Of a stretch of 64,000 nucleotides of DNA, positions 6,991 through 50,374 are shown piece by piece (position 1 is the stretch's first letter; every line of letters begins with the position of its first letter). The notes below the pieces were generated by a model that had not been told where the DNA came from, searched no databases, and saw only the letters and a list, made by a program, of their open reading frames with translations. A program made the position numbers and the translations under genes. Source of the stretch: Byssothecium circinans (taxonomy: Eukaryota; Ascomycota; Dothideomycetes; Pleosporales; Massarinaceae); assembly GCA_010015675.1 (NCBI GenBank), contig ML976983.1, forward strand, positions 603,372-667,371, written 5' to 3'.

Positions 6991-8130
6991 GCCTTATGAA
7001 ATAAGACTAGAGATCTATAGCGACAGAAGCCTACTATGTTTAGCAGCAGTATTAGACTGTAGTTGTGAGGGGCGTGATAATGCTCTAGTATAGAACTTAG
7101 GATCATCTAATCTATAGATTAATAAAACTAAATAAAGGATTAAGAGCGAAGCCTATGCCCTAGCTTAATCTAGTTAGATGTAGCATGGGAATTAAATCTA
7201 CGCTATTAGTGTAATATAGATGCAGTAATTTAATACTTTGTATAGATAGACCTTAACTAATATTATATATTAAAAAGTAGGTCCTGCCTCCTAGTCTATG
7301 TTAAGCAATATAGTAGCTTATAGATAGAGGGGCTAAGAGGGTATAGCATTAGAACTAGACTAGTATAAGCTATTATAGACTATAGGGTAGGCGCGTATAT
7401 ATATATATAAGAATACTTAATTTAAATATCTTTAATAGGCTAGATTATTTACTCTTACCTATAGATAGTACTAGAGCGTACCTTTATATTAATTCTTTTA
7501 AAAATTATTATCTTTCTATATCTAAAGTTCTTAAATATAACTATAATAAAAGTAGTAAAGGTCTATAATTATAGTATTTCTCCTAAGATAATATACTTAT
7601 ATAGGTAACGTATTCCACTATTAAGCCGGCCACACTATTAAGCCGGCTATATATTACTAAGGGGTATACTTGCCAGGCCTAGTCCGTATAAGGGGAGGTC
7701 GGTATATAACGTGTATACGTTAGGTAGTTGGTCTTTAGTAGTTTAAGAGGTAAATGTATAAAGCAACTAATTCTATAACAGACTATAGAATAACTAAGTA
7801 TTAATCTAGGTAAGAGATAAACTATAGAGAATTAACTACAAAGAATTAGAATTAGAAAGACAAAGGAAATTTATCTAGTCTTTATATCGCCTATCCTGTT
7901 CCTTTGCTATGTCCTTGCTACGCCTGCTACGTCTGTAGTAGTTGTAGTAGACTAAGCACTTAGGTACTACGTCTGCTACGTCCTCTTAGCACGTAGCGCA
8001 CCAAGCACGTTACCTAACCTGCTAACGTAACCTAACCCCGCGCATCGTCGTGTAGCCGTTCCCTAGGCTTAATACCTTCTACGCTGCATTATCTAGCTCT
8101 GGATACCCTGTATCCTTTCTTGTTTATAAC

Positions 8131-8225
8131 ACCACACTATTGAGCTAGCTATACTATCGAGCTGGCTACACTATTAAGCCGGCCACACTATCGAGCCGGC
8201 CACACCATCGAGCTGGCCACTTTTG
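8131..8225 (+). repeat. 17-bp subterminal repeat array, left arm of element A
   Basis: About five 17-bp units of the type acactatcgagccggcc run in tandem. The outer units carry ctagct or ctggct where the inner ones keep ccggcc, i.e. C to T and G to A changes increase outward. The array is in inverted orientation relative to the one at 9470-9595. Confidence 0.8.
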
Positions 8226-8703
8226 CTTAGCAAGGAAAATCAAACCATATTATCTTAATAATAAAGCTAAACCTTAATATTTTCTTTTAAAGTTTTAAAT
8301 CTAGATAGATATATATATAATCTAGTAGGTTTTAAATTTATAAAGCTATAGCTTACGTAATACAATAGTTATTAGTAAAAGAGAAAATCTTAAGTAAAAC
8401 CTACCTTTTACTATAGATTTATAGCTAAACGTTAGTAATATACTATATAACTTTTAGGACTTAATTATTAGTATATTAGTTAGTAGCTATTAAGTTATTA
8501 TAGCGTGCAGCCTAGGTTTAATACTATAATAGTAGGTATAAGGTAGGGGGTAAGAAAAGTTAAAAAACCTTCTAAATAAAGTTATATATATTAGATATCT
8601 CTACTCTCTTCTTAGGAGGAGGATAGTATATACTAAATAAAGCTATATATAAAATTTAAAGTAAGTAAATACCTCTAAAACTAAAAGATCTAGCTTAGGA
8701 AGT

Positions 8704-9469
8704 NNNNNNNNNNNNNNNNNNNNNNNNNNNNNNNNNNNNNNNNNNNNNNNNNNNNNNNNNNNNNNNNNNNNNNNNNNNNNNNNNNNNNNNNNNNNNNNNN
8801 NNNNNNNNNNNNNNNNNNNNNNNNNNNNNNNNNNNNNNNNNNNNNNNNNNNNNNNNNNNNNNNNNNNNNNNNNNNNNNNNNNNNNNNNNNNNNNNNNNNN
8901 NNNNNNNNNNNNNNNNNNNNNNNNNNNNNNNNNNNNNNNNNNNNNNNNNNNNNNNNNNNNNNNNNNNNNNNNNNNNNNNNNNNNNNNNNNNNNNNNNNNN
9001 NNNNNNNNNNNNNNNNNNNNNNNNNNNNNNNNNNNNNNNNNNNNNNNNNNNNNNNNNNNNNNNNNNNNNNNNNNNNNNNNNNNNNNNNNNNNNNNNNNNN
9101 NNNNNNNNNNNNNNNNNNNNNNNNNNNNNNNNNNNNNNNNNNNNNNNNNNNNNNNNNNNNNNNNNNNNNNNNNNNNNNNNNNNNNNNNNNNNNNNNNNNN
9201 NNNNNNNNNNNNNNNNNNNNNNNNNNNNNNNNNNNNNNNNNNNNNNNNNNNNNNNNNNNNNNNNNNNNNNNNNNNNNNNNNNNNNNNNNNNNNNNNNNNN
9301 NNNNNNNNNNNNNNNNNNNNNNNNNNNNNNNNNNNNNNNNNNNNNNNNNNNNNNNNNNNNNNNNNNNNNNNNNNNNNNNNNNNNNNNNNNNNNNNNNNNN
9401 NNNNNNNNNNNNNNNNNNNNNNNNNNNNNNNNNNNNNNNNNNNNNNNNNNNNNNNNNNNNNNNNNNNNN
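8704..9469. other. Assembly gap (766 Ns)
   Basis: A run of Ns inside element A. It is directly abutted on the right by the 17-bp tandem array, so a collapsed repeat is the likely reason. The true length is unknown. Confidence 0.95.
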
Positions 9470-9595
9470 ATGGTGTGGCCGGCTCGATGGTGTGGCCGGC
9501 TCGATGGTGTGGCCGGCTCGATGGTGTGGCCGGCTCGATGGTGTGGCCGGCTCGATGGTGTAGCCGGCTCAATAGTGTAGCTAGCTCGATAGTGG
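9470..9595 (-). repeat. 17-bp subterminal repeat array, right arm of element A
   Basis: Seven tandem 17-bp units of the type atggtgtggccggctcg. The five next to the gap are identical; the last two show G to A and C to T changes. This is the inverted counterpart of the array at 8131-8225. Confidence 0.9.
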
Positions 9596-12500
9596 AATAC
9601 GTTACTATAGTTAGTAGGTAAGTAATACTAAAGCATACACCCTTATTATTAGGGTTATGTATCTAGATAGAAATATCTAGTATTACTAATCTAATTAGAA
9701 ATTAATAATATAGGAATCTATAGTCTTAGACTAAAGTGCTACTACCTCTTAAACCCTTATATACTCCTTTCTAGATGCTAAGATTATTATATATAAATTA
9801 GGAGAGTAGATTAGGTATAAAGGGTATATTAGCTTAATTAGCATGTAGCTATGCCTTACTCCCTACGTTAGTGCTACGTCGCTTACGCTTATTAGACTAC
9901 TTTATAGTAACTCTAGTATCTATAAGTATCTCTATCAAGCTATTAGATTCCTTAAAGATACCTAATATATTAGAGCCTTTATAGTTAACTTATAGGTATA
10001 ATTAAGATAGCTATAGGTTATAGATAGTCTAATAGTACTACTAGCTACCTAGCCTTAGCGTAAGGCTTTATAGCTAATTTTAAAGTCCTAATTCCTCTTT
10101 ATTATCCTACTATAAGTACTAAGACTATCCCTTTACTTACCTATATCTAAACGCTGTAGCCTTTATTTACCTCTAGGTCTTATAGAAACATATAGGATAT
10201 AGGTAATTACTTCTTTTTCTTTTTAGGGTTACTTAACTTAGACTATATTATTATATCTATAGTAACTAGTTATATACTTAGCTAGCTATCTAATATTAAT
10301 CCTTTATTAGCTAGATAGTTATCTTTAAACTGCTAGGATAGTTCTAAGCATGATAACACTTACTCTTAATCTAGAGATTAAGTTTTAGACTAGCTAGTAA
10401 CTTTAAAATTTAAGCTAGTAAGTAACATATTAATAGTAGAATAAATTCTTTTAAAATATCTAGGAACCTATAGATTATAGATTTTTTAGATAAAGTTATA
10501 GGCTATCTACCTCTTCCCTTAATCTAGTTCTATATTCTTAATACTAAATTCCCTAATTAAGTACTAATAGAATATAGTATCTCTTCTATTAATAGCGGTA
10601 TAATAGCCCTAGATACGCACGTCTACATTATTATAAGAAATTAAAAAGCTATTAATTTCTTAATAGGGCTCTTTCTTATAGCCTATAAGTTAAAAAAGCT
10701 CTACTAAATTCTGTAATGCAATAGTCTAATTATAAGCATTCTATTAATTAGTAATATCTAGTATAGATGCTCTACATTTTACCTTATAAGTAAGAAATAG
10801 AAGGTATATATTATACGTAGCTATAATATAGGAATAGTCTTCTAGTTTATTACTAATAAAAAGCTAGAGTTTCTATAATTATTATCTATTAAATGCCTCT
10901 TACTTAAATCTAAGACTATAATCTAGTTACAGACATAGTCTATAGAAAGGAATAGTGTTATTCTAGCTAGTATTAGTAGTCTCTTTAAGGATCATTAGAT
11001 ACTTAGCACTATAGTATACTAAGATTTCGCTAGGAGAGATAATAAGCTATATAATATTATAGATTACTCTAGTCTTATTTCTACCTTTAATTATATCTAA
11101 AGTATCTTTAAAAAGATCTTTATTAAATAATATATATTCTAGTAGTAGCTGCAACGCTCTTAGAAGCTTTTAATAAAGCTCTTTACTTTTTATTATAATT
11201 CTCTCTTTATATTTACCTATAAAGCTACTACGTTCCCTAAGTTAACTTTTATACTATAGATATCTATATAGAGTACTCTTCTATTCCTATAGTTATTAGT
11301 TACTTAGTATTTATAATAGGACTATTTCTATGCTAATACTAGCATCTAAATGCTTATAGCAAAGGGACGCTAAAATCTCTTTCTTATAAGCGCATGATAG
11401 ATAATATCTTAAAAATAATATATTATTCTCTCTTGCTCTTCTATTAGCTAGTTTCTATTCTCCTTCTAGTAATTAACTTAAGCCTTACTAATAGTCTAGT
11501 ACCTAAGTTTTCTATTAACTAAGGCTATAGATACCTATATTCATTTTATAGGTAGCTTAAGTAAAGAGTAGAAGGGTTAAACTTTACCTTTTTATTAAGG
11601 TTACTTTAAAGTCTTTATCTACTAAATAGAGTTAGGCGCTATTTAGATAAGACTGGTACCTTAGATACGTAAGCTTCTATAACTTTATTATAACGCCACC
11701 TTAATAGTAGATATGATGCGAGAATTTTATTAAATTATAGTAGCTTTATTTATGCTACCTTAATATCTTTATGTTTTAATTATTAGCTTAATTATAATAG
11801 TTAAGAGTTATAAAAATGCACTTTTCTTTATAGTAGTTAATAAACGCTTTCTCTTTATAGTAGCTAAAAGTAGTAAAGTACCTACTATATTAATTTAACT
11901 TATAGGATTAAAGCGCTTATATGTATTACTACTAAATATAAGTTAGAGTATTAAAGTTAATATGCAAGTCTATAGGAAGGAAGCTACTAAATATACTAAG
12001 CTTATATAACGCTAAGGCGCTTACCTTATACTAGTATTAAGAGAGTAAATAAAGAGCTTAGTATTAGTAATCTTACTATATATATACATATTTGCTTTAC
12101 TAATACCTTAAGTATTCTTGCTAATAGATGAATGGTGTGTAGATATATATAGAACTAAAGAAAAAGTACGCCTTCTTTCTAGCGTCCTTCTAGATAGCTA
12201 ACTTTTTCATGATAATTAGCTATAGCTATTAGTAGTTATAAGGAAAGAAAGATATCTATAAAAGTCTTAGGAATACAAAGACTAATGCTTATTAACGTAA
12301 GAATTACTCCGTAGGAATGTGTTTAAGCTAGGATTATAGAAATAAGAGTATTAATAAGATCCTCTATCTAATTAGATATAGCTAAATAAGTAATAGCCTA
12401 TAGGAATATAAATCAGAAATAGCTCTACTATAGCATGTACTTTAGAATATAAGTCTATATTATGTATAGCTAGACTAAACTCTAAAACTAGGTTATATAT

Positions 12501-15500
12501 TATTACTAATTATTCTATACTAATTAATATATAGCTAAAGTTACTACTCTACGCTTACTAAACCGCTAGCTAGATAGAGTATTAATAAGACTAAGGACTA
12601 AAAGGCGCTTTAGGTGTAGTTAATAATAGTAGAGCTATAGGTATTATTAACTAGCACCTTACTAGATAAATTCTAATTTAGATAATACTAATATGAAAGA
12701 TAGAGGAGGATAGTATAAAAAGAGTAAGTTAGATAAAGTAAGGGGCTTAATATAATATACTAAGAGCTCTATAATAGATCTTATAGTACTATATTTATAC
12801 CTCTATAACCTAGGTAGAATAGGGAAGATGTAGTAGGTTATCCTATTATAGTAAAGAAATTATAGAAAGCTAACTAATTATAGCTTAGAGATACTATCGC
12901 ACGCTTTAAGGTAATATAAACTAAGTAGTAGTAGACTACCTTTACTATATTATCTTATTATAACTACTAACCTAGTAACCTAGTAACTAGCGCGTAAACT
13001 AGATAACCTACTACTTACTCTTAGTATAATTAGCACCTATCTCTATTTAGTAATAACTAGCTTTATTAACTATATTTAGAGCTATATAAGGCTTTATAGC
13101 TCTACCTATAGTAGAAGACGCTGTAATTACTAGCGTACTTTAATAATAAAAAAGTAGTAATAATTATATATAATAATAGAGAGTAGTTTTAGTCTATTAA
13201 GGATCTATAGCCTATATGAATCTATCCCTTAGCCTATCTTGCTTTTTACTTATGCTTTAAGTAATGCTAGCACCCTATTAAGCTCTATAGTTTTATTCTT
13301 AGCAGCTATATTAAAAGCTTCTATAGCTAATTTATTATAAGTCAACTTTTTCCTAGCCTAATCCCTTAAAGCTAGGCTCTTTACCTATAAGTTAATCTAT
13401 AGAATAATATTAAGCTTCTAGGTTGCAGGATTATATTAGCCTGCGTTAATGCGGTACTAGAACTTAGCGTTCTTAGATTTAGATAGTAAGATATAGTTCC
13501 TATCTATAACTCTAGGGGTAAATTTAGAGGTAGAGCTACTAAGTATTTTTACCTTTTAAATAAAGGCTCTAATTACTTTAGATATTATTTAGCTTATAAA
13601 AAGGTTTAGCTATCTTAGCCTTAAAGATAAAAATAACTTACTAGGGGTTTAAATAGGTTAAGAGAGTAAAAGTATAAGTTTTAAGTAATCTAATATAAGG
13701 TAAGATATATTAAGAATCTAGAAAATAGCTTAGAGGATAGGGTAATAGAGTACTATTTAAATACTATATATTCTAGGATAACTAGCTATGCATGTAATCA
13801 GATAGACTATAATATAAGCAGCTAATTTATATAATAAAAGGTAGCATAGCTCCCTTACTAACTATCTAAGGACTTATAGCATTTTAAAAGTCTAGTTAAG
13901 GTTATAAAAAATATTTTCTTACTATATGATTTAGTCTTAACTTAGAAGAGACGCAAGTATAAAGGAGGTAAAGTAAAAGTAATAATTATTAGGTAATATA
14001 CTAATACTAAAATAAGGACTTTGCTAAACTTATTATAAGTGCTAGGGTATTAGCTTATCCTTCCTACTATTACTAGTAACCTAGTTTCTACTATATTAGT
14101 ATAAGTATAGACTCTTAGCAAGGAAGAAAAGCTAAAAATACTATATTAATATAGGAATACTTATTTAGCTAGCCTTTAGGTAGAACTACTAGATGCTATA
14201 AAAAAAAGTTATATTAGTTAATAGTCTTTATAGATAGCTAGATGCATATACATTTATAGTTCTAGCTTGCATAAGAATGAAACTTCCTTTAACCTAACTA
14301 ATAGATTGCGGTTTATCTTTTAACTAGACTAATTAAATTACTTTTAAATATTTCTTATAGCTTAATAACTATCCTAGCTACGGTTAGATAGATTTTTATT
14401 CTTTTAAGTTAAATAGCTAGATTTCTCTAAGGTTATCCTCGTCTTTAATTAGCTTATCTTTATTAGGCTGCTTGTTTCCTAATATTTCTCGCCGCATCCC
14501 CCTAAATATTTCTTGATGCGCTAACTTAGTTAATTCTTAGTACTTAGAAGGAACCTAGCTATTAGATATAGTATTAAGTAGACCTAATAGACTATATTTT
14601 AAATATTAGGCTACTTTGAATAGCTTATAGTCCTTCTAATAGTTCATAAGTTTATTAGGGTAGGGTAGTATGAATAGACATAGTTCTATAAAACTAAGCT
14701 TTTTATAGAAACTAATAGCCTATCCTCTTAGGTTCTATAGTAATAATAAAATAGCTAAAATAAAGCTTTATCTATTAATCTAGTAGCTAATAGCCTTAGA
14801 GCTAATATTTAAATACACATCTTAAATACTTTTATATACGCCTTACTTTTAGGTTTAATCTAACCTTTATCTAAAGGATTAGGAATAGGTTACGTAAAAT
14901 CTAGTACTTTATCTACGTACTAGAAAGCTAGTTTAATACTAGATAATTACTAATTAATAATAGCTAAGATAATAGTAGGATCTTCCTCTAAGATAAAGAT
15001 ATTTCTTTTATACAGATTAGGGTGAAAAATCATAGGAATAGCTATGTTTTAAACGTAAGGGTCCTTAGCTATTCTACTTATTACCGCGTAACTATGTTTA
15101 AGTAGTTAATAATGTATTTTAATAGATCTATAGTAGTATAAACATTTTAGAGAAGACCTAGCTAATAGAAGTCTAGAAATTCTAGCGTTAATTAGACTAT
15201 TACTATGTATAGCAAGATTAGGCTCTAAAGATGCTATTTAGTATTTTACTAGTTTTAATACGCATTAAGCAACTTATAGGGTCTATAATTAGGGTTAATG
15301 CTATAATAATATCTAGATTATCTAATATTATAGTCCTAGTAGATAGCTCTATAATAAGGACTAATATAAAATTCCTAGTTTAATAATAGCTTTAGAGTAG
15401 TAAGATATAGGGTATTTATAAAGTATAAGCTACTATAGGCTAGAAAGTTAAGGTTATTAAGTTTCTTAAGCTTTTTATATATTACCTCTATATACCTGAT

Positions 15501-18500
15501 TTAATCGCTTACGCATATAGCTAGCTATCTTTTATATAATAGAATTCCTAGTGCGTATTCTATAATAATATATTTACTACTAATAGTGTTTGAAGCGTTA
15601 TTACTCTACTCTAGTATTCTTAGTATAAGAATAGTAGTCTTAGCCTATACTAGAAATATATAAAGCTATTAGTCCTTTAGCTATTTTTTACTAATTACCT
15701 TAGTATAGAACCTATAAAACTTAATAGTTATAACTTTAGAATTTATTATTAACCTTGCTAGCCCTGCTAGTAAGAATAGTAGTCTTATAATAACATATTT
15801 CCTATTATTAGTATAAAATATAAAGACTCTATTAAAGCTACCTTCCTTCTTATTATATAAAGTAATAGAGCTAGCGCTAGGATAAAGTGCTACAACCCTA
15901 TAATATAGGGCATTAAAATTAAATTATATAATATACGCGTCTCTTTCTCGTATATTCTAACGGAGCTATCAGCCCTTTATATAGTTATAAGAATTAGGGC
16001 CTATAATTATGCTAATGCTCTATTTATAATATAAAAGAAGAAGGGCTACCTAGACTACTTACTTTCCCTAATTAATTCTATTATCTACCTTAAACTAAAA
16101 GATTTCGTATTACTAAGAAAGGATCTTATAGAAATTATAAGATGTGCTAAGGCTAAGGCGTCTATATAATATAGAAGTATTAAAGTTCTATTTAGAGAAA
16201 CGTACTACGTATAGAAAAGATATAATAAGAAGTAAGATACTCTATTTAATATAATATAATATATTAGACCTTCTACTTTAAAGCTAGAGATCTATTAACT
16301 TAAATAAAGGAAGAATTAACTACTAGGGAAAGCTTAAGTTAATTACTTAAGTAATAAGGAACTTAGGTAATATCTAGGATAAAGAGCCTTTTTATATTTA
16401 GGCCTTAGCATTACCGCATAGTCTATATTTGCTAAGGCGCGTAATTTATGCTACGATATAAACTATGCAAGCTCTATTATAATTTATGATAAGAGGCACT
16501 AAGAGTACTATTATAGACTAATCAATTTGTTTATATTATTAGCACTACTCTTATTTTTAAATTATACTTATTAAAAGTATTCTATTAACGTTTTTCTAAC
16601 TAGACTAGAATAACCTTAGCACTATTATACTCTAAACGTTACGCTTAATTATAAGTAGTAATTATTATTAACTTAAGGCTCTAATAAAAATCTTATTATC
16701 TATCCCTTAACCCTACCCCTCGCGCTAACTAGCAGTTAACAAATATTATTTAGTTAGGTTAGTGCTTTTATAATGCAAGTAGCTTTTCTATTATCTCTAG
16801 ACTACTACGTAAGATTTTATTCTTTAGGAAGGAATAGAGCTAAACATTAGGCCCTCTAATTCTCACTTATAGGTAGCTATAATCTATAGAAGGGAAAACG
16901 TATTAAGATTCAATATAATAATGCATTTATGTAATATAGTACTTGCTTTAGCTACACTTTATACTCTTTAATGCTATAGTTATCTTTACTTTTTAGTGTT
17001 ATTATATTATGTATATTTTTAAATACCCTAAAAGAGTATAAAACCTTCTTTCTTAGAGGGGCACTATTAATAAAGTATTTTATCTTATAATTATAATACT
17101 TTAGGCTAGCATACTGCGAAGTTATATATCTAAGCTCTATCATATATTATATATTATATACGCTAGCTATATAAAGAAGATTAATTACGACACAGTACCT
17201 ATTATTATAAGGGGGTTTCCTACGTACCTTTACTAGCTTACTAGGACTCTTATAGGTATTTAGTAGTAAATTAGATAGAGAGTAAGACTATTAAGGGTAA
17301 TAGATATCTAACCTTATATAAGTATAAGATAACGCTTTATAATTAGTAAGACTAATATATCTTATTAAGAAGATATGCTTTTAATTTAGTAAAGAGAAGA
17401 GTTAACTAAGAAGAATAAGAAATATCTAGAGAGTGTCTTAGGTTATATACTAATCTCCTTAAACCTTACTATTGCCTGATCCTTTATTAATATCTAGCTA
17501 AGAGGTTATTATCTAAAGATATCCTCTATTATATAGGATATTATTATATAACTTCCTTATTATCTAGCTAAGCCTTTACTTATCTTAGACATTATTACAT
17601 AATGTTAGTCCTTAGTAATACTAATAGCTAATACTTTATATTCTACTATTAGTATTATCTCTTATTATATTATCTCCTACTAGTACCTAGTTATATTCCT
17701 TTATAATTATAATACCTATATAATTATTTTAAGGACTAATTCGTAGTACTATAACCTCTTAAGAGTAAATATTACCCTTATTACTAAAGTAGCTAATACT
17801 AAACGCTACTAAATTCTAAACCTTAGAAGAAATTATAGTCTATACGTTAAAGCTATTAAAAGATAAATATTATATAGATAAACTATACTTACCTCTAGTC
17901 TAATATAAACTCTCCTTAGCTACTACTATAGCTTCTTAGGCTCCTTATGCTAGCTATTCCCTACCTAATACTTAAGCTAAAATTTATAGTAGTTAAGTTC
18001 TCCCTATTATACTTCCCTTTACTACTTACACTCTTTATTATTATCTTTATTAGTAATTTAGTGTTATTATTCCTATATTACTTCTTAGATAGAGGTGTAG
18101 CTATAACTATTATATTAGAATATAGCATGTTTAGAAGTAGCTAAATATAAGACTCTTATTTTACGCTCTATATAATCTCTGCTTGCTACTTATACCTTCT
18201 TTTTAGCGTAGTCTTAAGGTAAGAGAGTTTTAAGGGCTTACCTATAGTTAGTACTTTTCTACTATTCTTTCTCTATTCTATAGCCTTCTTTATAGCTATA
18301 TTAGCTACTTTATTAACTATGATCCCTTTATAGGCTAGTATCTAGTAAACTTATACTAGACATTCTTAGTCCTAGAGGTCCTAGATTTAGTAGGTAATCT
18401 CCTTTAGTATATAGGCTTCTATTTATCCTTTAGCCTTAGTAATAGACTATATAGCAGCCTAGTTATTTATATAGATAGTAATATTATATCTACTTTTATT

Positions 18501-21286
18501 CTAGTCCTACGTAATTTATAGTGCTAGGCTAATGCTATATAGCTCTACTATATATACTATAGATATTATAGGTAGCCTTAGGTATACACTACGTGTCTAC
18601 TATATATATAGATATACTATAGTAGCACTAATCTTATTATCTATTCTACTTCTATCTATATATATGCTAAGGTCTTAGCTTATTATAGTTTCCCTATTAT
18701 ACGAAGTAGAGGCCTAATATAGAACTAATAGTATAGAGGTAGGTAAGAGCATACTAGTTACTAATATTATATAGAGAGTAGCTAGCTAATCCTAGTACGT
18801 ATATTTTAAATATATATTCCTATCCTAGCATGCTTAAAATATAACTTTTTATTCCTCTACGCTATTAACTTAAAGTTCTATATAGGACACTCTAGTTTAG
18901 GTACCTACAGGTTCTTAGTAAAATTTATAAGATAGGTAAAGCTTACGTAAGGAAATCTAATAAAAGTCTCTAACTTTAGTATTTTAAGGTATATATAGTG
19001 GGCTAGGTATAAGATAAACTACTACCTTCTAGCCTAATATTATAAGGAACCTATACCTAGTAAGCTAATACTTAATTAGGTTTAAGAAGGCTAGCTAGTA
19101 GGTCCGTATAGTAAGCTTTAGTAGTTTAAAGAGAAAGATAGTTTTTTCTATTTTCTTTACTATAGTTAGGGCCTTAGCATTCTATTTTATCTACTTATAC
19201 TTAAGGTGCTCCCTATCTAGACTATTTTCTAATACTTAATCTACCTATTCTAAGTCCTTTAACTAGCTATCTTGCCTTCTACTATATAGCCTTAATGCCT
19301 ATCTTATTATAAGTGTTATTACTATAATACCTAAGATAGTATTTATAGTAAGATATCTACTAATAATTTGTCTATATTTATTTTCTAGTTTTTATTACCT
19401 GCTTACCTAAGAATATTAGACTATAGCTTAGTCTTAATATTTATTAGGAGTCTATAGTTATCTAGGAGGTAACGCTAGGTATTAGTAGAATAAAAGGCTA
19501 ATTTACTATAGTAATAATATAATAGGCTTAATTCTTCCTATTCTAGATTAATGTTAACCTAAAGAGCTAGCCTAATTTTCTTTCTTAGTAGTGCCCCTCT
19601 CTATTAGAAAGTAACTATCTTACTAGTAGTAACTTATAGCCCTTTACTAACTTTAGGTTACGTAGAACCTATTCTTATAGATTAATAGTATCCCCTTAGC
19701 TAGACTTAGTTATTCCTCTTATCTTAATTCCTACTATTTATACGTGACTATACCTATTAGTATGAGAAAAGCTCCTACTATTACTTAAAAATACCTTATA
19801 ACTCTACCTAACTCTTATATAACCTATATAATATCTTTGCCTATAGCTTTAATAAGCTTATTATTAGTAGATAGTATAACGAGGTTATTTATAGAAGATA
19901 CAATTTTTTATATAGAGGATCTAGTAATAGAAGACTAAGTCTAAAAGATATAAAGGAAAGGCTTTCTAATTAAGTTAATAGATAGCCTTAACTTCTATAA
20001 GAATAATATGTTAGATAATATAGTAGGTAGAAACATTAGTAACCTATTATATATCTAATCTTCTTTTAGCGTATTTAATGTATTCTAGAGGCTTTGTTTC
20101 TATAGTTAGGTCTTAGACTCTATAAAATATACTAAACTAATGCAAGTTACGTCTACGCTTTTATAATAGGACTAAACCCTAAATTAAAGGCTATTATTAT
20201 CTAGTTATAGAGCCTATAATTATGCATACTAGTCTATAGTAGTTTATAACTACTCTAGATTAAGGATTTTAATATATTAAATAGCTTACTAGAGATACTA
20301 TATACTCCTCTAAAGTAATACAAGCCTATTAAAGTTAATATAGAAAAAGGTAGCCTATAGGTTTTTAGTACTCTTTTAGTTTATATATTTTAATAAACTA
20401 TATAGAGCTATTCTTAATGCATAGCTTACTTTTAAGAATTTAAAAGAGTTTATAATTTATTTTATCTTCGCACTAGTAGAAGAAGTTAAGGGCTGGCTAA
20501 AAAAGAACTTTCTAAGAGGGTAAGATTTTAAGTAAAGGGCTTTATAGCTAGAAAGCTTAATAATAGGGCTAAACCTTACTTTTAAGGGTAGCTAGTCTAA
20601 CTATTAGTATTAGATTTACTCCTTAGCTATCTATCTACCTATGCGTAGAGCTAGAATAGAGCTTTTACTATTTAATATAATAACTATATCTGAATATATG
20701 ATAGGTACCTTTAATCTAAAGATAGTACTAGTATATATAGCTAGTATCTTTAATCTAAACGCTATATCTAAATATATAACTAGTACCCTTAACCTGTATT
20801 CTATCTCTAGATAAGGGAATGCATATTAAGTTTAAGCACTAAAATAGGTACTTTCAAGAAACCTAAGAATCTATGCATATTATATAAGAACATTTTAGCA
20901 CTCCCTAAGCCTATGCCATTATTAACTTTAGGAAATAATGCAGTGCTTAAGAGAACTTCTATAGGTATTATATTTTTTACTCCTATTTATTATTAGATAA
21001 TTAGGTAATAGTGTAGTATTAGGAGGTATACTATTAGCTATATAGTTAAGTAACCTATTAGCTAAATCTATCTAGTCCTTACTAATATTATCTCTTCCTA
21101 TCTTATAGCACTTATAATAGAAGTTTGTATCTAAGTCCTTTATACTTAACTTTTGTATCTTATGAAATTTTAAATTCCTAGCCTTATTAAGTGCTTTATT
21201 AACTTTCTAGTAGAGCGCCTTCTATTACTATAAGATAGATTCGCCTAGATTTCCTTAGCCCTTCTTATAGTTATAATATAAGTATA

Positions 21287-22239
21287 ACGTATTCCCCTAT
21301 CAAGCGCGCCAAAATTTCTTGGCAAGGAAAATCAAACTGTATTATCTTAATAACAAAGCTAAACCTTGATATTTTCTTTTAAAATTTTAAACCTAGATAG
21401 ATATATATATAATCTAATAGGCATAAAAATTATATAGCTATAGCTTACGTAATCTAGTAGTTATTAGTAAAGGAAGAAATCTTAAGTAAAACCTACCTTT
21501 TACTATAGATTAATAGCTAAACGTTAGTTATATACTATATAACTTCTAGGAGTTACTTATTAGTATAGTAGTTAATAGCTATTAAGTTATTATAGTATAT
21601 AGCCTAGATTTAACGCTATAATAGTAGGTATTAANNNNNNNNNNNNNNNNNNNNNNNNNNNNNNNNNNNNNNNNNNNNNNNNNNNNNNNNNNNNNNNNNN
21701 NNNNNNNNNNNNNNNNNNNNNNNNNNNNNNNNNNNNNNNNNNNNNNNNNNNNNNNNNNNNNNNNNNNNNNNNNNNNNNNNNNNNNNNNNNNNNNNNNNNN
21801 NNNNNNNNNNNNNNNNNNNNNNNNNNNNNNNNNNNNNNNNNNNNNNNNNNNNNNNNNNNNNNNNNNNNNNNNNNNNNNNNNNNNNNNNNNNNNNNNNNNN
21901 NNNNNNNNNNNNNNNNNNNNNNNNNNNNNNNNNNNNNNNNNNNNNNNNNNNNNNNNNNNNNNNNNNNNNNNNNNNNNNNNNNNNNNNNNNNNNNNNNNNN
22001 NNNNNNNNNNNNNNNNNNNNNNNNNNNNNNNNNNNNNNNNNNNNNNNNNNNNNNNNNNNNNNNNNNNNNNNNNNNNNNNNNNNNNNNNNNNNNNNNNNNN
22101 NNNNNNNNNNNNNNNNNNNNNNNNTTTCAGCTTAATAGCTCTTATATTTAAATTGTTATTAAAGGTTGAATGTTTGATTTTCCTTGCTAAGAAATTTTAG
22201 CGCGCTTGATAGGGTGGCGCGCTCAATGGTGCTTTACGT
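21287..22239. mobile_element. Inverted-repeat DNA element B, related to element A, interrupted by a gap
   Basis: The left end starts ACGTATTCCCCTATCAAG at 21287 after TA. The right end finishes acgt at 22239 before TA. Both arms share GCGCGC-containing 17-bp units and then a caaggaaaatcaaac segment (21324 onward; inverted near 22172-22186); the right arm has one extra 17-bp unit. The left interior matches element A at 8230-8543 with scattered C/T and A/G differences. As placed, the element would be about 950 bp, too short for a transposase, so a non-autonomous copy is likely. Positions 21635-22124 are Ns. Confidence 0.6.
21635..22124. other. Assembly gap (490 Ns)
   Basis: A run of Ns inside element B, at nearly the same internal position as the gap in element A. 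The shared repeat probably broke the assembly at both places. Confidence 0.95.
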
Positions 22240-23395
22240 TAGTAGATTTAATAATATAAGCTTCTATAACTACTATATTAGATAGCTACCTACTTATTTT
22301 ACTACCTTTGCTAACTACTATAGTGCTACGCGTATAGCGCTTATTACTTAAGCCTAGTAACTTCTTTAGGGAGGAGTATAAAGATAGCTAGTTAATACTA
22401 TAAGCTTTTAGGCTTAAGCTATAAGTGCTACTAGTAAAAATTACTTTAAACCTAGTTTTAAGACTATATAAGGGCTAACCTTAATAGTAAATATCCTCTT
22501 TAATCTACTTAACTATACTAAAGTTAATATCTTTTACTACCTTTTAGTAGTAAAGCTATCTTAAATCTTTATTATTACTATAAGTTTTTTTAGATATATT
22601 TTTACCTTATATATATACTAATTCTATTATAAAGTATTAAATTTACTATACTAGTAGACTACCTTATTTACTTTTTTAGTATCTTACTTTATAATACTAC
22701 GTATATACCTTTTATAGTTTATTAAGATAATACTAGTCCTTAAGTAGCTAGTATTCTATTCTAGCGCTAGTTATATATTAAGGTAATACTTATTTATATA
22801 TATAAAAACTTTAATATTACTTCCTATACTTAATATACTATAGCTTATAATTATATAAAGGAATTTATATACTATGCTAGCTATATTTCTATTATAGGCT
22901 AGTATAGTATAGTATATTTTAATTATATTTATAATAATTATATAGTATAGTATACTTTTTTTAATACTAACTAAAATACTAAGTATCTATATATACCTCT
23001 ACTACTACCTCCTCCTTATAATAATAATTCTAGTAGTACACGCTTAATATCCTTTAAGTCTAGCTCTAGATAAGGTGCTTACAACTACTATAACCTATAT
23101 AAGTTACTTAGTAGTTCTATAATATACTTATCTAGATACTAGGTTAGTACTTTCTAAGTACTTTTATAATATTTAGTATCTAAAAAGGTCCTTATATAAA
23201 CTTAAAACCTAATAAGGTATATTAGGCTTCCTTGCTACTACCCTTTATATATAGCTATTATATAAATAAAATATATCTTATACATATATAGCTCTCTTTT
23301 ACTTATAAATAGTATTATTTTTAATAGGTCCTATATATGTACTTATGTAATATTTATCTTCTGTAGTTTTAGTTCTAGGTTTTAGTGTTCTCGCT

Positions 23396-24352
23396 TACTA
23401 AAACTTATTCTGTCAGAAACCTGCGTTATTAGCTGCTGTAGGCGGAGTTCAGAGTCCTAATTTGCTTAAAAGATAAGAGGGAAAATGCGGAGTACCTCAT
23501 CCACCATTGACCTCACAAAGGCCGGGACCCCAGCTGTGCCGCTCATCGCCGTATCTGGATGCCTTAACTGGCTACCTATTGATAATATCCTTATACGGCA
23601 CGATATACTCTCTTCCTGTGTAATTTCTCACCGAACACTTCTACTCTAATGACTTATTTTTCAGACTTTCAGTCCGAGGCCTCTCTGCGACGTTCTCTGC
23701 ACAAAGCTCATTTACACCATGCCTTTCGCGATAGCCTCGGGACTTGCACTTCTCATACCGCTCCCTACGTATCTCTTCCAACGCCGAAGGCGGAGGAAAG
23801 CGGCGGTGCATACTCAAGGATACACACTTCCTGCTTAACACCGACCAAAAGAGCCTTTCTTAGCCTTCTACTTTCAGATGGCAATGTACAACGAAGTACC
23901 ATCTCTTTTTCGTCTTCAGTGTCGTTATGGGAAAGACCATGGTCACTCAATGATTGATTACTAAGCAGACAAGTCGCGTATCAGCTTATCGCTCATACAA
24001 AACAGCCCCTGTCATTGACTTTTTTTCATTAGTAATCAATCATTGAGTGATCATGATCATGATCACCCCCATCAATGTTCCAGGTTTATTCACTTTGTGG
24101 CAAACCCACGCTCAACACCATCGCCCCAGAGAATGTCCGAGCGATTAATTTGTCGAGGGATTTCGTTGTTTGAGCCCGTGCGACTGGCCGGGATGGAATA
24201 GCGCCGCTGTTCTTCCGTTTCCGCTATTGGGAGCTTGCTTAAACACCACACAAGCAGCAATTCTTCCCAGTTGAACAATTAACACAATCTCTCATTCATT
24301 GTTGCTTCCTTCGTTAAGTCATTCTACCTCTATCTTCAGGTTAGGAGGTTCT
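23396..24352. other. Non-coding spacer between the RIP block and the AIM9-like gene
   Basis: Composition returns to normal here. An ORF of about 100 codons at 23649-23957 has no recognisable domain, and its overlapping antisense ORFs are equally unremarkable. The only structured feature is the inverted repeat at 23935-24058. Confidence 0.5.
23935..24058. repeat. 30-bp inverted repeat around a 64-bp loop (MITE-like)
   Basis: Arms are 23935-23964 and 24029-24058. The inner 22 bp of each arm (including caatgattgattacta) are perfectly complementary; the outer 8 bp have two mismatches, both transitions. The whole unit is 124 bp and non-coding. It is followed by a short gatcat repeat. A miniature inverted-repeat transposon is the simplest reading, but I found no clear target duplication. 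Confidence 0.75.
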
Positions 24353-42775: not shown

Positions 42776-43612
42776 CTAAAATTGAATAAGCTGGTTACCA
42801 TGAACGTGTGATGTGCCGCCCTGGTGCATGATTTTGCTGTTGTAGTTGTTCCAGGTGTTCGTCGCCCCTACCTAGCGGCCATCAGGTTTAGAATGATAAC
42901 GTTATCAAGGCACACTTACATCAGATTTCTTCAAAACTTCCAATATGACAGCATGGAGATCTTGGTCTTGGGACGCAGCAATACCATCAAGGATGTTGGT
43001 AAGGATTTCATTGGTCCCAATTTCCGAAACCTCCTCCTTGCAGAGGTCTTGTTGTGCTTGCCGTACCGCTGGGAAGGTTTTGATAAGGTCGTCAACCAGC
43101 TCGATTATGTCCGCAATTAACCGTTCGAAGTATTTCTTTTTATACAGTGCCCATTTCACCTTCTGTTGCAAGGGAGTGTTATTCTTTCTTTCGATGGACA
43201 ACTCGCGCATTTTCTCATGTAGAGTCCGATGGTCAGAATCGACGTCCGCTTGTGTATCAACAACAAGCAGGCTAGAGTCACCGGCAGCTGCCTGGCTCTT
43301 GAATTTTCCAGACTCCCTTTCAGCATCTTTAAACAACTCTAACACCTGTCCTAGCAATTCCTCCGCCTTTGGTATATCCTCCGTGGACAATATTGTCGAT
43401 CTTAGGGATTGGGCATTCGCGACCTGGCCACTAAGCCCGGCGGCCTTGCCCCATCTCGAAAGCCGGAGCCCTGCGTTGTCGAGCTTGAGCAAATCGGTCT
43501 GAAAGTCTTTGCCGATATTACGGGCGAGTTGAACGAATTCAAAGCAGTCCACGGCATTGTTGAAGAGGCCAGCAAGGGCGACGAGGCCGACAGCGAGACC
43601 GCCGGCTTCCAT
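42776..43612 (-). CDS. HeLo-domain cell-death effector with C-terminal amyloid-like motif (HET-S-like)
   Basis: Two exons: 43612-42920 and 42871-42776; 262 aa. The 48-nt intron has GTAAGT, an internal ctaaac and a CTAG acceptor, phase 0. Residues 1-231 form a HeLo domain: a hydrophobic N-terminal helix (GLAVGLVALAGLF), then NNAVDCFEFVQLA and RLSRWGKAA, closely resembling the HET-S N-terminal domain. In that family the domain inserts into membranes and kills the cell after its C-terminal motif is templated into amyloid. Exon 2 encodes 31 residues rich in Asn/Gly/Gln/His (232-262) with Q248-G-G and V254-H-G, matching the receptor's N-terminus without gaps. Without splicing the protein ends at 235 aa and lacks the motif. 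It is divergent from the NLR gene, with 245 bp between starts. The cell-death role is inferred. Confidence 0.85.
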
Positions 43613-43857
43613 GGTCGCGGCTAGCGTATATAAGTAAAGATGAGAATAGACGTATGGTTTGGATGAATGGACTACATTATGGGAAGTCGATGCCTGGACC
43701 TAGATTTCTTCTACACACTGCAGCCGCATAACACGTGCATTTCAGCTGCGGGGTCGTCGACGCTGTCCTTCAGCTGCCTTCGCGGATACGGAGTGCTGTG
43801 CCTCCACTTGGGCCCCGTACTTTGCTTCGCCCACGGCCGCTCCTCTGAGCGGCGAGC
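43613..43857. promoter_or_regulatory. Shared divergent promoter of the HeLo/NLR pair
   Basis: 245 bp separate the two start codons. A TATA-like tatataag lies at about 43627-43634, close to the HeLo start, and could serve either strand. The layout implies co-regulation; no specific operator was identified. Confidence 0.5.
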
Positions 43858-46800
43858 ATGAGCTCTTTCGCGTTCACCAACGACGGAGGCCGGGTCGCCA
43901 TCCAAGCCGGCCAATACATCGTGCACGGAGACAGCGTCGTGCAGTAGGTTCAGTCGCAGCTCGAAGAATAACATGCGAAACAGTCGCTGACGGCACAGAC
44001 ATGCTCCAAATCACCCCGCCAAGCTGCCCTGCGCTGAGGACGCCCCCTTCAACTCCTTCGCGAAACAGCACGAGCGGACCTGCCTTAGGGGCACGCGCGT
44101 CGACCTCCTTAACGAGATACATGGCTGGGCGGATGGGCTAGACAAGCGGTGCATCTTCTGGCTGAGTGGCCTGGCGGGCACGGGAAAGTCGACGATCGCG
44201 CGGACCGTCGCGCGCCGGTACTGCGACAGGGGGCGTCTGGCGGCCAGCTTCTTCTTCTCGCGTGGCGGCGGCGACGTTAGTCACGCAGGCAAGTTCGTCA
44301 TCAGTATCGCGGTGCAGCTCGCGGACAACGTCCCAGCATCACGCGACCACATGGTAGACCGCGATGATATTGCTAGCCAGTCGTTGCACGACCAGTGGCA
44401 GCACCTCGTTCTCCGTCCGCTGTCGAAGCTGCACGAGCGTGAGCCATACGTTGTAGTCGTCGACGCGCTTGATGAGTGCGACAACGACGACGATGTCCAG
44501 ATCATCGTGCGGCTGCTGGCTGAGGCTCAGTCGCTGGAGGGGATCCGGCTGCGGGTGTTCCTGACGAGCAGGCCAGAAGTGCCGATCCGTTGGTGGATGG
44601 CAGATGCGGAGCACAAGGACAAGCACAAGGACTTTGTGCTCCACAGCATATCGCCGTCGATCGTGGACACCGACATAAGCCTTTTCCTGCAACACTACCT
44701 TCGCATCGTTGGACAAAAGCATAGCTTGGGCGTCGACTGGCCGGGCCCAGAGATCATCGAACAGCTGGTCCGACGTGCATGCGGCTTGTTCATCTGGGCT
44801 GCAACTGCGTGGCGATTCATCAGCGATGGAAAGCGGTTTGCGGCCAAGAGACTGGAGACGATCCTTGTAAGCAACAAAAGCACAGCTACAGCTCCAGAGA
44901 AGCATCTCGACGAGATGTATGTCACCGTGCTCAAGAACTCAGTCTATCCCAACTATACGGATGAAGAGAGAGAAGAGCACTATATAGCATTAAGGTACAT
45001 TCTCGGAAGTATAGTAGTTTCGCTCTCTTCTCTTTCGGTTGATGCTTGGAGCAAGCTACTCCATGTTCCAAAACAGAATGTCGACCAGACGCTCGAGGAC
45101 CTGCATGCCATCTTGAATATCCCAAAGGATCCGACGCAGTTAGCCCACATCCATCACCCTTCGTTTCGCGACTTCCTCCTCGACAAAGACCGATGTGGCG
45201 CTGCTTTCTGGGTAGACGAGGAGCAGGCGCATCAGACCTTAGCAGACAACTGCATCAAGCTTATGACTGCCTCTCTCAAGCAAGACATCTGCGCCGTTGA
45301 CAATCCTGGCGCGCTTGTCATCATTGGTACGGAAAGGAGCCGAATACTGCAATATCTCTCCTCGGGGCAGCAATACGCATGCCAATACTGGGTGGAGCAC
45401 CTTCGTAAGAGTGGTACTCAGCTTCATGACGATGACAAAGTACATTGCTTCCTACAGAAACATCTACTTCACTGGTTCGAAGCTCTCAGCTGGATAGGCA
45501 AGGTCTCTGAAGGAATCCATGCGCTGATTGTTTTAGAGTCTATTTTGGCTGTAAGTTGCTTCCAGGACGATAATTGTACATGTTGCTGATTTGTGGCTCA
45601 GAAGAGCAGGTGTCCCCGCCTATCGGAATACGTCCACGATGCTAAACGGTTTATCACATCCAGCCGGCCAACAATTGAGCTGGCTCCTCTCCAGATATAC
45701 AGCAGCGCGCTTATATTCGCGCCAATGAGAAGCATAATACGACAGCAATTCAGCCGGTTTATCCCTCGATGGATACGACAGATACCGAGGGTGAACAACG
45801 ATTGGAACGCAGTACTACAGACAGTTGAAACCCATTCAAATTGCGTAAATTCCCTATCCTTCTCAGCAGATGGGACAGTGTTGGCATCGGCAGGTGGCGA
45901 TGGGATGGTCAAGATATTGGACGTAAAATCGGGAGCGGTGCTGCAAACACTTGATGAACATCAACGTTCAAAAGCTGTTTGCTCCGTATCTTTCTCACCC
46001 AACGGAACGCTTCTAGCGTCATCATCTGCAGATGGAACGATTATAGTCCGGGATGCGGGTTCAAGAGCAACAACACGGATCTTAAAAGGCCATTTGGATT
46101 TGGTTAATTCCATTGCCTTCTCGCCAGACGGTATGTTGCTAGCTTCGGCGTCATCGGATGCGACTGTCAAGCTGTGGGATTTGCAGTCGGGAAAAGCTCT
46201 GCACACGCTTAGGGATCATTCACAATTTCCTCAGTCTGTAGCCTTCTCACCAGAGGGAACGTTTCTAGCGTCGGCCTCACAAGATAAGACGGTTATTATC
46301 TGGGACGCGGGTTCGGGAGCGACATTACGAATCTTAAAAGGCCATTCGGATCGGGTTTATTCCGTCGCTTTCTCGCCAGATGGGATGTTGCTTGCTTCGG
46401 CATCAAGTGATACAACTGTCAAGCTGTGGGATTTGCAGTCGGGAGAAGCTCTACACACGCTCATGGGTCATTCGAAATGGGTTGACTGTATAGCCTTCTC
46501 ACCGGATGGGTCGCTAATAGCGTCTTCATCAGGCGATCATACTGTTAGGCTATGGGATCCGCAGTCTGGAATAGCGATACAGGTGCTCGAAGGTCATTCA
46601 GAGCCTGTTGGTTCCGTAACCTTTTCGTCGGACGGAACGTTGTTAGCCTCAGGCTCGTGGGATGGGATAGTCAAGCAGTGGGACGTACGGCTAGCGAAGG
46701 TACGACAGATGCCAACAGACTGTTCTAGTCCTGTTGAATCCGTCGCCTTCTCACCAAACGGAAAGCTGATTGCTTCGGCCTCCCAAGACACGACTATCAG

Positions 46801-47626
46801 CCTATGGGACGTCCAATCAGGAACAGTGCTACAGACATTCGAGGCTCATTCACGCGAAGTTTGGGCTGTCGCATTCTCAACAGACGGAACATTACTGGCA
46901 TCTGGGTCGTGCGATAACACCGTTAAGATATGGGACGTACGGTTGGCAGAGCGACCACGGATGTTGCGGGCCCTCAACAGCCATTCTGCGCCCGTTAGAT
47001 CCGTAGCCTTCTCGCCAGACGGAATATTGTTGGTGTCGGCATCGTATGATACGACCGTAGTTGTATGGGATTTCCGGTCGGGAGCGATGTTGCGGATATT
47101 TAAGGGTCATACGTCCAGTCTTTCCTCTGTGGCTGTCTCGCCGAGCGGAGCGTTAGTGGCGTCAGTAGGTTGTAATTCTACTGTCAAAGTCTGGGATATA
47201 CAATCTATGGCGGTGCTGCATACCTTTCGTCAAGGGGATACCGTCCAGTGGGGGGATGTGCAATCTGAAGCGGCGCTGACCACATCTCTTGGCAATATTG
47301 CTAAGATTAGGACTCTGTCATTTTCTAACGGTGGGAATTACCTCGAGACCAATATTGGCCGGTTACATAGCACCATTTTTCCCGAGAAAGCCGCCGTTCT
47401 TAGCCCTACTTCTCACACTTCCATATTCATAGTCGGTAGATGGGTAACGGCCGAATCTAATAATGTACTTTGGTTTCCTTCCGAGTATGTTCCAACTAGC
47501 ACTGCTGTTCATGGAAACAAAGTTGGTCTAGGATGTTCGTCAGGACAAGTGTTGGTTATGGAATTCGATTTCCCCGTTTCCTTCTCGCCTGCCTCAATAG
47601 TTAGGTCTCCCTTAGTTACTAGATGA
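43858..47626 (+). CDS. NACHT-WD40 NOD-like receptor with N-terminal amyloid-like motif
   Basis: Three exons: 43858-43943, 43999-45550, 45602-47626; 1220 aa with every junction in frame (introns 55 and 51 nt; GTAGGT...CTGAC...CACAG and GTAAGT...GCTCAG). Exon 1 encodes essentially only the N-terminal motif: residues 7-29 with Q16-A-G and V22-H-G. The linker starts LPCAEDAPFNSF. The NACHT domain has Walker A GLAGTGKST (86-94) and Walker B VVVVDALDECD (180-190), followed by winged-helix-like regions ending near HPSFRDFLLDKDRCG. About eleven clear WD40 repeats occupy roughly residues 620-1110, plus a degenerate end. In NWD2/HET-E relatives ligand binding to the WD repeats triggers NACHT oligomerisation and motif amyloid formation. 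Here the partner would be the divergent HeLo gene. No break was seen. Confidence 0.88.
46030..46460 (+). repeat. Two-WD unit duplicated within the receptor
   Basis: WD repeats 2-3 and 4-5 are paired at a 252-nt (84-codon) spacing: cttaaaaggccatt recurs at 46081 and 46333, and the segments encoding MLLASASSD and TVKLWDLQSG recur in the same register. Repeats 3 and 5 are nearly identical in protein while the others are more divergent. This fits internal reshuffling as known for fungal WD40 receptors. Confidence 0.8.
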
Positions 47627-48400: not shown

Positions 48401-49291
48401 TTAATCGGTCTTCGTCTCAATCATAGGCTTTAACATACCCGCAATGACTCTATCCGCAGTAGACGACGGCAACAAGCCATAAACGAGACTATTAACCACG
48501 GCATGCCAAAAATATGGAGTCACACACTTATGCCCATGCCCGGCCCTCGCCAGTATAGACTGCGCCATCACGTCCGCCGTCGGCATTAACAGTCCCGCCT
48601 TAAGATTGGGTTCTTTCTGCAGCAGCGGCGTGTATGTAGGGCCGATCACGACTTCCAGCACTTCAACGGCAGACCGAGCCTCGGCTTGCTCAGCGAAGAG
48701 AGCCCGGTTCCAGGCGTGCAAGGCGCCCTTGCAGCCAGAGTATGCGGCAACGTAGGGCTGCCCGACCTGCGCGCCGGAGCCGCAGGTAAGGACTAGTGTA
48801 GGCTTCTGCTGGGCAGCGAGCTGGGGGAGCAGGGCACGGGTAAGATGCAAAGGGAACAGGACGTTGAGTGAGAACAGCGCTTGCATCTCTGCGGGTGTTG
48901 TAGACTCAAAGTGCTTGAAGTTGCTCGATAACGGGCCTGTTCCGCCAACGTTGTTGATTAGGACCGTGAGGGGCCCAGGCAGGTCCCCGACCAGGGTGAC
49001 GATGTGGTCGATGTCTGTGGTCGTGAAAGTACTCGCATTAGCGGTTACGGTGCGGAATTTGCGCTGTGGGTAGGCGGCAGCGAGTTCTTCGCGCACGTTG
49101 GACAGCTTGCTCTCGTTGCGGCCATGGATGAGGACGTTGAAGCCGCGAGCTGCGAGTTCGCTGGACAGGGCGCGACCGATGCCGTCGCTGGCGCCAGTGA
49201 TGAGAGCCCAGCTTGCGCCGCCGTCGGGAGTCTTGTGGAGGTATTTGGGCAAGCCTGAGGCGTAAAACCAGTGAATGATTGGGAGCGGCAT
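48401..49291 (-). CDS. Short-chain dehydrogenase/reductase, 17-beta-HSD / 3-oxoacyl reductase-like
   Basis: 296 aa, intronless. It has the NAD(P)-binding motif T32-G-A-S-D-G-I-G, the N113-N-V-G-G structural motif, and the catalytic set S172, Y184 and K188 (YSGCK). RN at 58-59 after the second strand suggests NADPH preference. The fold, the N-terminal hydrophobic lead and the length resemble the very-long-chain 3-oxoacyl-CoA reductase / steroid dehydrogenase group, but the actual substrate is unknown. The start at 49291 is the first Met before the Rossmann fold. The gene converges with the NLR gene and appears intact. Confidence 0.85.
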   Translation of the reverse strand: MPLPIIHWFYASGLPKYLHKTPDGGASWALITGASDGIGRALSSELAARGFNVLIHGRNESKLSNVREELAAAYPQRKFRTVTANASTFTTTDIDHIVTLVGDLPGPLTVLINNVGGTGPLSSNFKHFESTTPAEMQALFSLNVLFPLHLTRALLPQLAAQQKPTLVLTCGSGAQVGQPYVAAYSGCKGALHAWNRALFAEQAEARSAVEVLEVVIGPTYTPLLQKEPNLKAGLLMPTADVMAQSILARAGHGHKCVTPYFWHAVVNSLVYGLLPSSTADRVIAGMLKPMIETKTD

Positions 49292-50374
49292 TGGAGCGTT
49301 GTGTGACAGGATGTGGAAGCGACTGCCCAGTGTAGCTTATATATGTAGGGAAAGAAGCCAGGACGGTGATTCGGGTTGAGTACGCATTACTTGTACCTCA
49401 GGGCAAACATCTTGGTGTCACGCAATCGGCGATTTATCTTCATGTTGTAGTCGAAGGACTCGGAACGGTGCAAAGTTTGTAAGAAGGGGGCGCTTAGTTG
49501 CGCCGGATGGAGCGGACGAAAGACAGAGGGCTGCAAGGAATTGTCCGGTTTGAGAATCGTAGACTATGCAGCTCGGGCCACTCCAAATGTAGAAATATTT
49601 GTGGGCTGGGCAAACCGCACTAGACCTTAACAGGCATTTAGAGTACATGCACTTCTGCTGACGAATCAGAGAGATGGCAATTTGCACTCTCCATCACCTC
49701 CGTTACTCTACTCCACTTTAAACAATATACGAGCTTGAAACCCGAAATACCTTGCCCCCTCACTTCCTCCCAACCCCCTCCACCACTCTCGCCGGATGCG
49801 CCTGCAACACGCCCCAATCCAGCAACTTCTGCACCGCCGCATAGGTCGCAACACCGAGCGCGCGATGCTTCGGCATTGCTTCTCTCGCGTACCCACCGCC
49901 GAGAGCGACGCCCTTTCCCTTCCTTCAAATGTCTCTTTCTCTTTGCCCGCCCCCCCCCCCCCCCCCCCCCCCCGCGTCGCTCAACGCAGATTACAACACG
50001 GGCACCTCCAGCTCCACACACTACAGAAATTGTCCCCCCTATTATAAAGGGGGCAGTGGGGTGGAATCCCCCAAGTAGGAGGCATTCATTTTCGGGTCTA
50101 GCGCCTATTACATACCTTATTTTTAGTTACACACGATAGTTGTAATTTAATTTTTATTTATTAGGTATCTTCGCAGAGAGAGAGAGAGAGAAGCTTCTAT
50201 TTTAGCATTTGCTTACTTTAGAGAGCCAGTAAATACTCCAGTGGGAAGCCGGAGGTAAGGCAGCCTGCCTACCTTTTCACACCCTATGCTAGGGGTAGAC
50301 ATGCTAGCATAGGAGGGGTTAACCCCCTATTATATGGTTTATTCTCCTACAATAAGGGGGACAGTTTCCGTAGT
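49292..50374. other. Spacer with poly-C tract and GA microsatellite
   Basis: No convincing gene. ORFs at 49638-50139 on both strands run through the poly-C tract and are compositional artefacts. A (GA)n microsatellite lies at about 50176-50191. The sequence just before 50375 is the pre-insertion flank of the copia element. Confidence 0.55.
49950..49973 (+). repeat. Homopolymer C tract of about 24
   Basis: An uninterrupted run of C follows a pyrimidine-rich stretch. Length in such runs is unreliable in most sequencing data. It splits the surrounding ORFs arbitrarily. Confidence 0.85.

Follow-up and report, generated by a model that had tools for sequence, protein, structure and literature searches.

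A candidate HeLo/NACHT-WD40 cell-death pair sharing a single-copy, amyloid-like motif in Byssothecium circinans

Fungal receptors signal death through a handful of described codes, HRAM, PP, sigma and PUASM, and for receptor/effector pairs the consulted parts of PMC9815663 list HRAM (together with sets resembling HRAM2 and HRAM4), PP, sigma, PUASM and a further motif linked to PNP_UDP. For Podospora anserina alone, three independent codes are reported in the consulted part of PMC7885112, and the mechanism of its HET-S/NWD2 pair, as outlined in PMC9815663, serves as the model for the sequence of events considered below. Here, we present an analysis of a 64,000-nucleotide stretch (the window) from the 48.4 Mb genome of Byssothecium circinans (Pleosporales, Massarinaceae; contig C7, 603372-667371), in which a HeLo gene and a divergent NACHT-WD40 receptor gene encode matching short motifs, at the C-terminus of the HeLo protein and at the N-terminus of the receptor. 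Judged from sequence and by analogy, the two genes probably form a HET-S/NWD2-like regulated-cell-death module with a single-copy amyloid-like tag, and the tag is best read as a distinct motif family within a known kind of system, separate from PP and partly framed like HRAM.

The gene models are predictions from sequence that agree with the public annotation. The HeLo gene runs on the minus strand from 43612 to 42776 and comprises 262 codons in two exons: exon 1 (42920-43612) encodes residues 1-231 with the complete HeLo domain, and exon 2 (42776-42871) encodes residues 232-262, 31 residues including the motif (residues 238-261; 42782-42853), which was delimited by the family alignment and by pairwise identity. 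Between domain and motif lies a phase-0 intron (42872-42919; GTAAGT...CTAG). The receptor gene, on the plus strand at 43858-47626, comprises 1220 codons in three exons. Its exon 1 (43858-43943) covers residues 1-28 and part of 29 and holds the motif (residues 6-29; 43873-43943), the last codon of which is split by intron 1 (43944-43998; GTAGGT...ACAG). Exon 2 (43999-45550) encodes an NPHP3_N-type NACHT NTPase (about 44114-44572) followed by a helical part, and exon 3 (45602-47626) the WD40 region (about 45806-47215) and the C-terminus; the acceptor of intron 2 (45551-45601; GTAAGT...TCAG), not the one at 45604, yields the public 1220-aa protein. Letter for letter, the spliced HeLo model (262 aa) is identical to P0001 and the receptor model (1220 aa) to P0121, both public proteins of B. 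circinans. The coordinates of the original prediction, made from the letters of the window, are thereby confirmed together with its introns at 42919-42872 and 43944-43998; the second receptor intron (45551-45601) was not in its list. The predicted 245-bp spacing between the divergent start codons (43613-43857) likewise follows from both gene models.

The domain assignments are clear for both proteins. PF14479 matches HeLo residues 5-201 (E 9.9e-51), and with the AlphaFold model of the protein as a Foldseek query all four PDB matches at E <= 0.001 were HET-s/HET-S N-terminal domains (TMt 0.84-0.89), in agreement with the anticipated kinship to the HeLo family. The model, built from a 43-sequence alignment, has a mean predicted local distance difference test (pLDDT) score of 84.6 with helices up to residue 232, while pLDDT falls below 50 at residues 234-253 and 257-262, as a disordered tail is expected to look. 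Since the helical domain and exon 1 both end at about residue 231, the intron divides the killer domain from the tag. In the receptor, the NACHT domain is matched by PF24883 (residues 68-220, E 2.9e-29) and PF05729 (E 2.6e-6), and the WD40 part comprises 11 PF00400 stretches. As a side observation, HeLo residues 22 and 32 are D and N; by count they correspond to positions 23 and 33 of HET-s, and the title of PDB entry 2wvq names HET-s mutated at these two positions (D23A, P33H).

The motif is present in single copy in effector and receptor and follows the consensus [FWYI]-x-N-x-x-x-[KR]-[IV]-x-x-Q-x-x-x-x-x-[VI]-x-G. In the window pair, the gapless 23-residue alignment of HeLo residues 239-261 to receptor residues 7-29, with its 7 identities, was confirmed. 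Across family alignment A1, which joins 18 effector tails with the receptor of the window, only the N and G columns are invariant, 16 apart, and the remaining consensus positions are widely kept: among the 18 effectors, 18 have an aromatic residue or I at position 1, 16 have K/R7, 15 have Q11 and 17 are hydrophobic at position 17, and all four features occur in 5/5 receptors. Three proteins whose motif is cut or shifted (P0040, P0057 and P0086) were excluded from the effector profile, and the short-tailed P0067 and P0113 were retained. Over 16 full-length proteins, mean pairwise identity is 0.63 in the HeLo domain and 0.505 in the motif (residues 237-258), against 0.251 in the intervening linker (225-236). 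A PDB search with the motif profile gave no match.

The search for HeLo relatives returned 263 matches, of which 120 were listed and are counted here. By their tails, 21 carry the new motif, 47 are PP-like by a loose pattern, 47 end in V[SGR] and 5 are other. The V[SGR] ends resemble read-through of the intron at the HeLo-motif junction, a class that rests on a crude pattern of the protein ends rather than on DNA; many metagenomic relatives stop in this way right after the HeLo domain, as if gene callers had read on into the intron without splicing it and so dropped the exon with the motif, and surveys built on such calls would overlook the motif. The 21 motif-bearing effectors comprise 15 from named species and 6 metagenomic ones. 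All named carriers in this analysis are Dothideomycetes: they belong to ten named genera, Alternaria and Exserohilum among them, and to a Phaeosphaeriaceae sp., the class having been verified for four genera and being presumed by us for the others. A partial protein of Coniosporium apollinis (P0040; Dothideomycetes incertae sedis) has the motif outside the Pleosporales.

The receptor search (residues 1-620 as query) scored 7986 candidates, 1690 of them at E <= 1e-20, and the best 120 were listed. Five receptor/effector pairs carry the motif on both partners, from the same species and on contigs of identical length: the window pair (1443157 nt), a paralogous pair of B. circinans (2118044 nt) and pairs of Paraphaeosphaeria sporulosa (3244807 nt), Pyrenochaeta sp. 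(234417 nt) and Phaeosphaeriaceae sp. SRC1lsM3a (679919 nt). Contig sharing was inferred by eye from equal nucleotide size and species name, and gene adjacency was seen in the window only. Four listed receptors besides that of the window sit on the contig of a motif-bearing HeLo protein, and 4/4 have the N-terminal motif; the motif is thus kept on both proteins in related species, and its absence from orthologues, which would have refuted the original prediction, was not observed.

Several comparisons agree that the shared segment is homologous. In the window pair, the best gap-free match of the HeLo tail to exon 1 of the receptor was reached in 11/20,000 shuffles, and for the 27-residue motifs of the five pairs the corresponding figure was 0 to 5 of 5000 shuffles each. 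A profile of all 18 effectors ranked the paired receptors 1, 2, 3, 4 and 7 of 120 N-termini (71 scored at all), and after removal of the five partners and one close relative a profile of 12 effectors still ranked them 1, 2, 3, 6 and 7 of 120. Conversely, with the five-receptor motif profile the first 11 of 120 HeLo tails were all motif-bearing, and P0040, present in neither training set, came top (16.2 bits). In hhalign, the effector and receptor motif profiles matched over 25 columns without gaps (probability 92.9, E 3.8e-7). Shuffles, rankings and profile-profile alignment therefore bear out the predicted short motif common to a HeLo effector and its adjacent NACHT-WD40 receptor. P0125, with 16-17 bits, is the exception to generally low absolute effector-profile scores, and as a protein query receptor residues 1-50 retrieved only the receptor itself (3 candidates).

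By analogy with HET-S/NWD2, we infer a trigger, oligomerisation, amyloid folding, templating and pore formation for the window pair. The NACHT-WD40 protein would act as the sensor, and ligand binding by its WD40 part would lead to oligomerisation, which would bring the N-terminal 24-residue motifs together in an amyloid-like stack. This stack may then template the homologous single motif of the HeLo tail, and the recruited HeLo protein would release its N-terminal helix into the membrane, leading to cell death. A number of observations weigh against this interpretation. Amyloid formation and toxicity are predictions from architecture and motif sharing, and an AlphaFold prediction of the exon 2 peptide by itself was uninformative (pLDDT 52.7). 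A same-contig receptor was found for 5/15 motif effectors from named species, counted among the best 120 of 1690 receptors, and the hypergeometric value for the 12-effector ranking (1.1e-7) is only indicative, since the five pairs share ancestors and are not independent. With the effector profiles, the receptor of the window reaches no more than 2.1-2.4 bits (E about 1), the unpaired receptors P0184 and P0150 rank among the five paired ones, and with the receptor profile 10/21 motif-bearing HeLo tails score no higher than the best PP tails. Nor was cognate specificity seen: the cognate sum was reached by 13/120 pairings, no better than swapped, and the window effector scores higher with the paralog's receptor than with its own (48 vs 34). 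Covariation of the two motifs, on which the original prediction had placed weight, was thus neither supported nor contradicted.

Part of the motif follows the HRAM pattern, and a divergent HRAM is a possible reading, if a doubtful one. The rules in the consulted part of PMC4518210 place hydrophobic residues at 5, 8, 10, 16 and 18, N at 3 and G at 19, with R/K preferred at 15; N3, hydrophobic 8 and G19 are present in 23/23 motif sequences, so that the invariant N and G reproduce the HRAM N3-G19 spacing. HRAMs tolerate wide sequence change according to the same source, and single-copy HRAM-like motifs are described on PNP_UDP effectors in the passages of PMC9815663. The other published core positions nevertheless fail or are mixed: hydrophobic 5 occurs in 0/23 and R/K15 in 1/23 sequences, hydrophobic 10 in 1/18 effectors and 4/5 receptors, 16 in 7/18 and 2/5, and 18 in 4/18 and 1/5. 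The window effector has no second repeat within its 31-residue exon 2, two repeats being usual, though not invariable, in HRAM-type HeLo proteins. A Pfam library scan of the pieces found no match to HET-S or HET-s_218-289, although the latter picks up just some 25 percent of the proteins with HRAMs (PMC4518210, passages). The early view that the motif is not of the HET-s repeat class accords with this comparison. Its centre in the receptors points elsewhere: [GA]xQxG is present in 5/5 receptors, close to the GxQxG segment that the consulted parts of PMC5485727 and PMC7885112 give as common to PP and RHIM. The suggested closeness to PP/RHIM holds only for this receptor centre: 2/18 effectors have the core, and the profile comparison is negative. 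An outlier of the PP/RHIM class is quite improbable. With a profile built from 44 PP effectors, hhalign gave probabilities of 1.1 (effector motif), 0.5 (receptor motif) and 2.05 (both); the PP profile gave negative bit scores for each of the 23 motif sequences and above 20 bits for four receptors with PP-like N-termini. PF17046 found the PP-like receptor P0197 at 8.1e-10 as a positive control, and a Pfam scan found no family, PF17046 included, in the N-termini of the five new receptors. In the same scan, two of three effector tails had no match and that of the window matched an unrelated family only below the cut-off. With an HRAM-like frame and a PP/RHIM-like receptor centre, the whole motif therefore fits neither class. 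It is unlikely, on our estimate, that the motif is an intermediate joining the two immune-amyloid classes; if it were, the shared ancestry that Kajava et al. proposed for HET-s and RHIM motifs (via PMC5485727, consulted in part) would become directly testable by cross-seeding.

By inspection, the PUASM pattern FxGxGxQxxGxGxF is not present, the new motif having an invariant N two residues after the aromatic and a HeLo effector, and no sigma motif was matched in Pfam, a result qualified by the unverified presence of a sigma model in the library. The shared segment might also be a non-amyloid docking peptide, homotypic or heterotypic, an idea that gains from the K/R at a conserved place in 21/23 sequences and from the inferred nature of the amyloid state; it is unlikely, as the segment agrees in position, length and N/Q/G content, and the pair in architecture, with known amyloid-signalled pairs in the consulted parts of PMC3321046 and PMC9815663. 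That the similarity is due to chance or shared low-complexity composition, the genes being merely adjacent, could draw on the mere 7/23 identities of the window pair but is extremely improbable: the five same-contig pairs, the effector-trained ranking and the profile-profile match all speak against it. We thus retain the reading of a HET-S/NWD2-like module whose tag is a distinct motif family.

Other loci in the genome were compared with the window pair. On contig C9, at about 1134600-1139800 (~1134.6-1139.8 kb; L013, L014), a second divergent HeLo/NACHT-WD40 pair shares another segment, NEWVGNIAED in one partner and DQWVGNVIID in the other (8/1500 shuffles); the WD40 region of its receptor partly reads N, and a PDB search with its tail gave no match. 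Should this pair prove functional, two or more separate codes would coexist in the genome. On C21 (about 670030-673800; L007, L008), a HeLo gene lies beside a divergent NACHT gene; a shared motif was not supported for the two (234/1500 shuffles; profiles <=4.5 bits, E 0.006 with a four-sequence set), and a short exon after a GTGAGT donor there weakly resembles the new motif. In a six-frame scan of 76 genome loci, covering by count the flanks of ~48/110 NACHT matches with some stretches reading N, only the window pair scored (57.0 and 43.4 bits, values partly by construction because both sequences are in the profile), the next score being 8.9 bits (E 0.6). Outside masked stretches, PF17046 had no match in the genome, and PF11558 and PF17108 had none over the cut-off. 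The B. circinans paralog pair P0020/P0125 was not located in the genome sequence searched. Further side observations are a HeLo-like place with many stops on C42, a weak PF11558 match containing a stop on C2, and an open reading frame at C18:821200-822900 (L057) that looks like a nucleoside-phosphorylase-type effector with the PP-like tail ITFGNSQDSIQAGNIHGNIQFG and adjoins a relative of the window receptor bearing in-frame stops. Within the window itself, a 311-aa open frame downstream of the receptor (48401-49336, minus strand) is short-chain dehydrogenase/reductase-like by appearance, and positions 6001-24000 have a GC content of 21-40 percent against 47-58 percent elsewhere, as expected for repeats degraded by repeat-induced point mutation.

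The pair represents a candidate pathway for cell death or self-recognition in Dothideomycetes, and the motif suggests an additional private channel by which a receptor could pass a death signal to its killer. A further HeLo-linked code would mean that the repertoire is larger than surveys state, and a short single-copy motif would suit structural work. The motif list in the consulted part of PMC9815663 hints, without proving it, that the tag family is unreported. The motif was not found in text passages, as distinct from logos and supplements, of PMC9815663, PMC4518210, PMC3321046, PMC7885112, PMC5485727, PMC12261475 and PMC12881547, and survey figures or supplements may list it.

Among the known systems, the unassigned NLR34 class and the PUASM class described in the passages of PMC9815663 share with the new family an amyloid-like motif at the N-terminus of a fungal receptor. 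NLR34 has no effector reported there and was compared by its description, not its logo, while PUASM differs in having G where the new family has its invariant N and in pairing with PNP_UDP. A HeLo domain with a motif other than that of HET-s had been thought unusual; this does not hold, as HeLo-PP pairs have been known since 2012 (PMC3321046, consulted in part) and the stricter pattern used for the PP profile classes 44 of the 120 listed relatives as PP-like. The HeLo-PP and HELLP/PNT1 systems, which are PP/RHIM-like, resemble the window pair in the one motif copy of the effector and the GxQxG-like core of the receptors and differ in Q spacing and flanks, the new motif profile being unrelated to PP. 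Compared with HET-S/NWD2 and its HRAM1 motif, the window pair has a single motif instead of two repeats, another sequence pattern, and its effector motif on a separate exon after a phase-0 intron. In common with that P. anserina system, it combines a HeLo effector bearing a C-terminal motif with a neighbouring NACHT-WD40 receptor bearing an N-terminal one, and its HeLo fold matches the solved HET-s domain.

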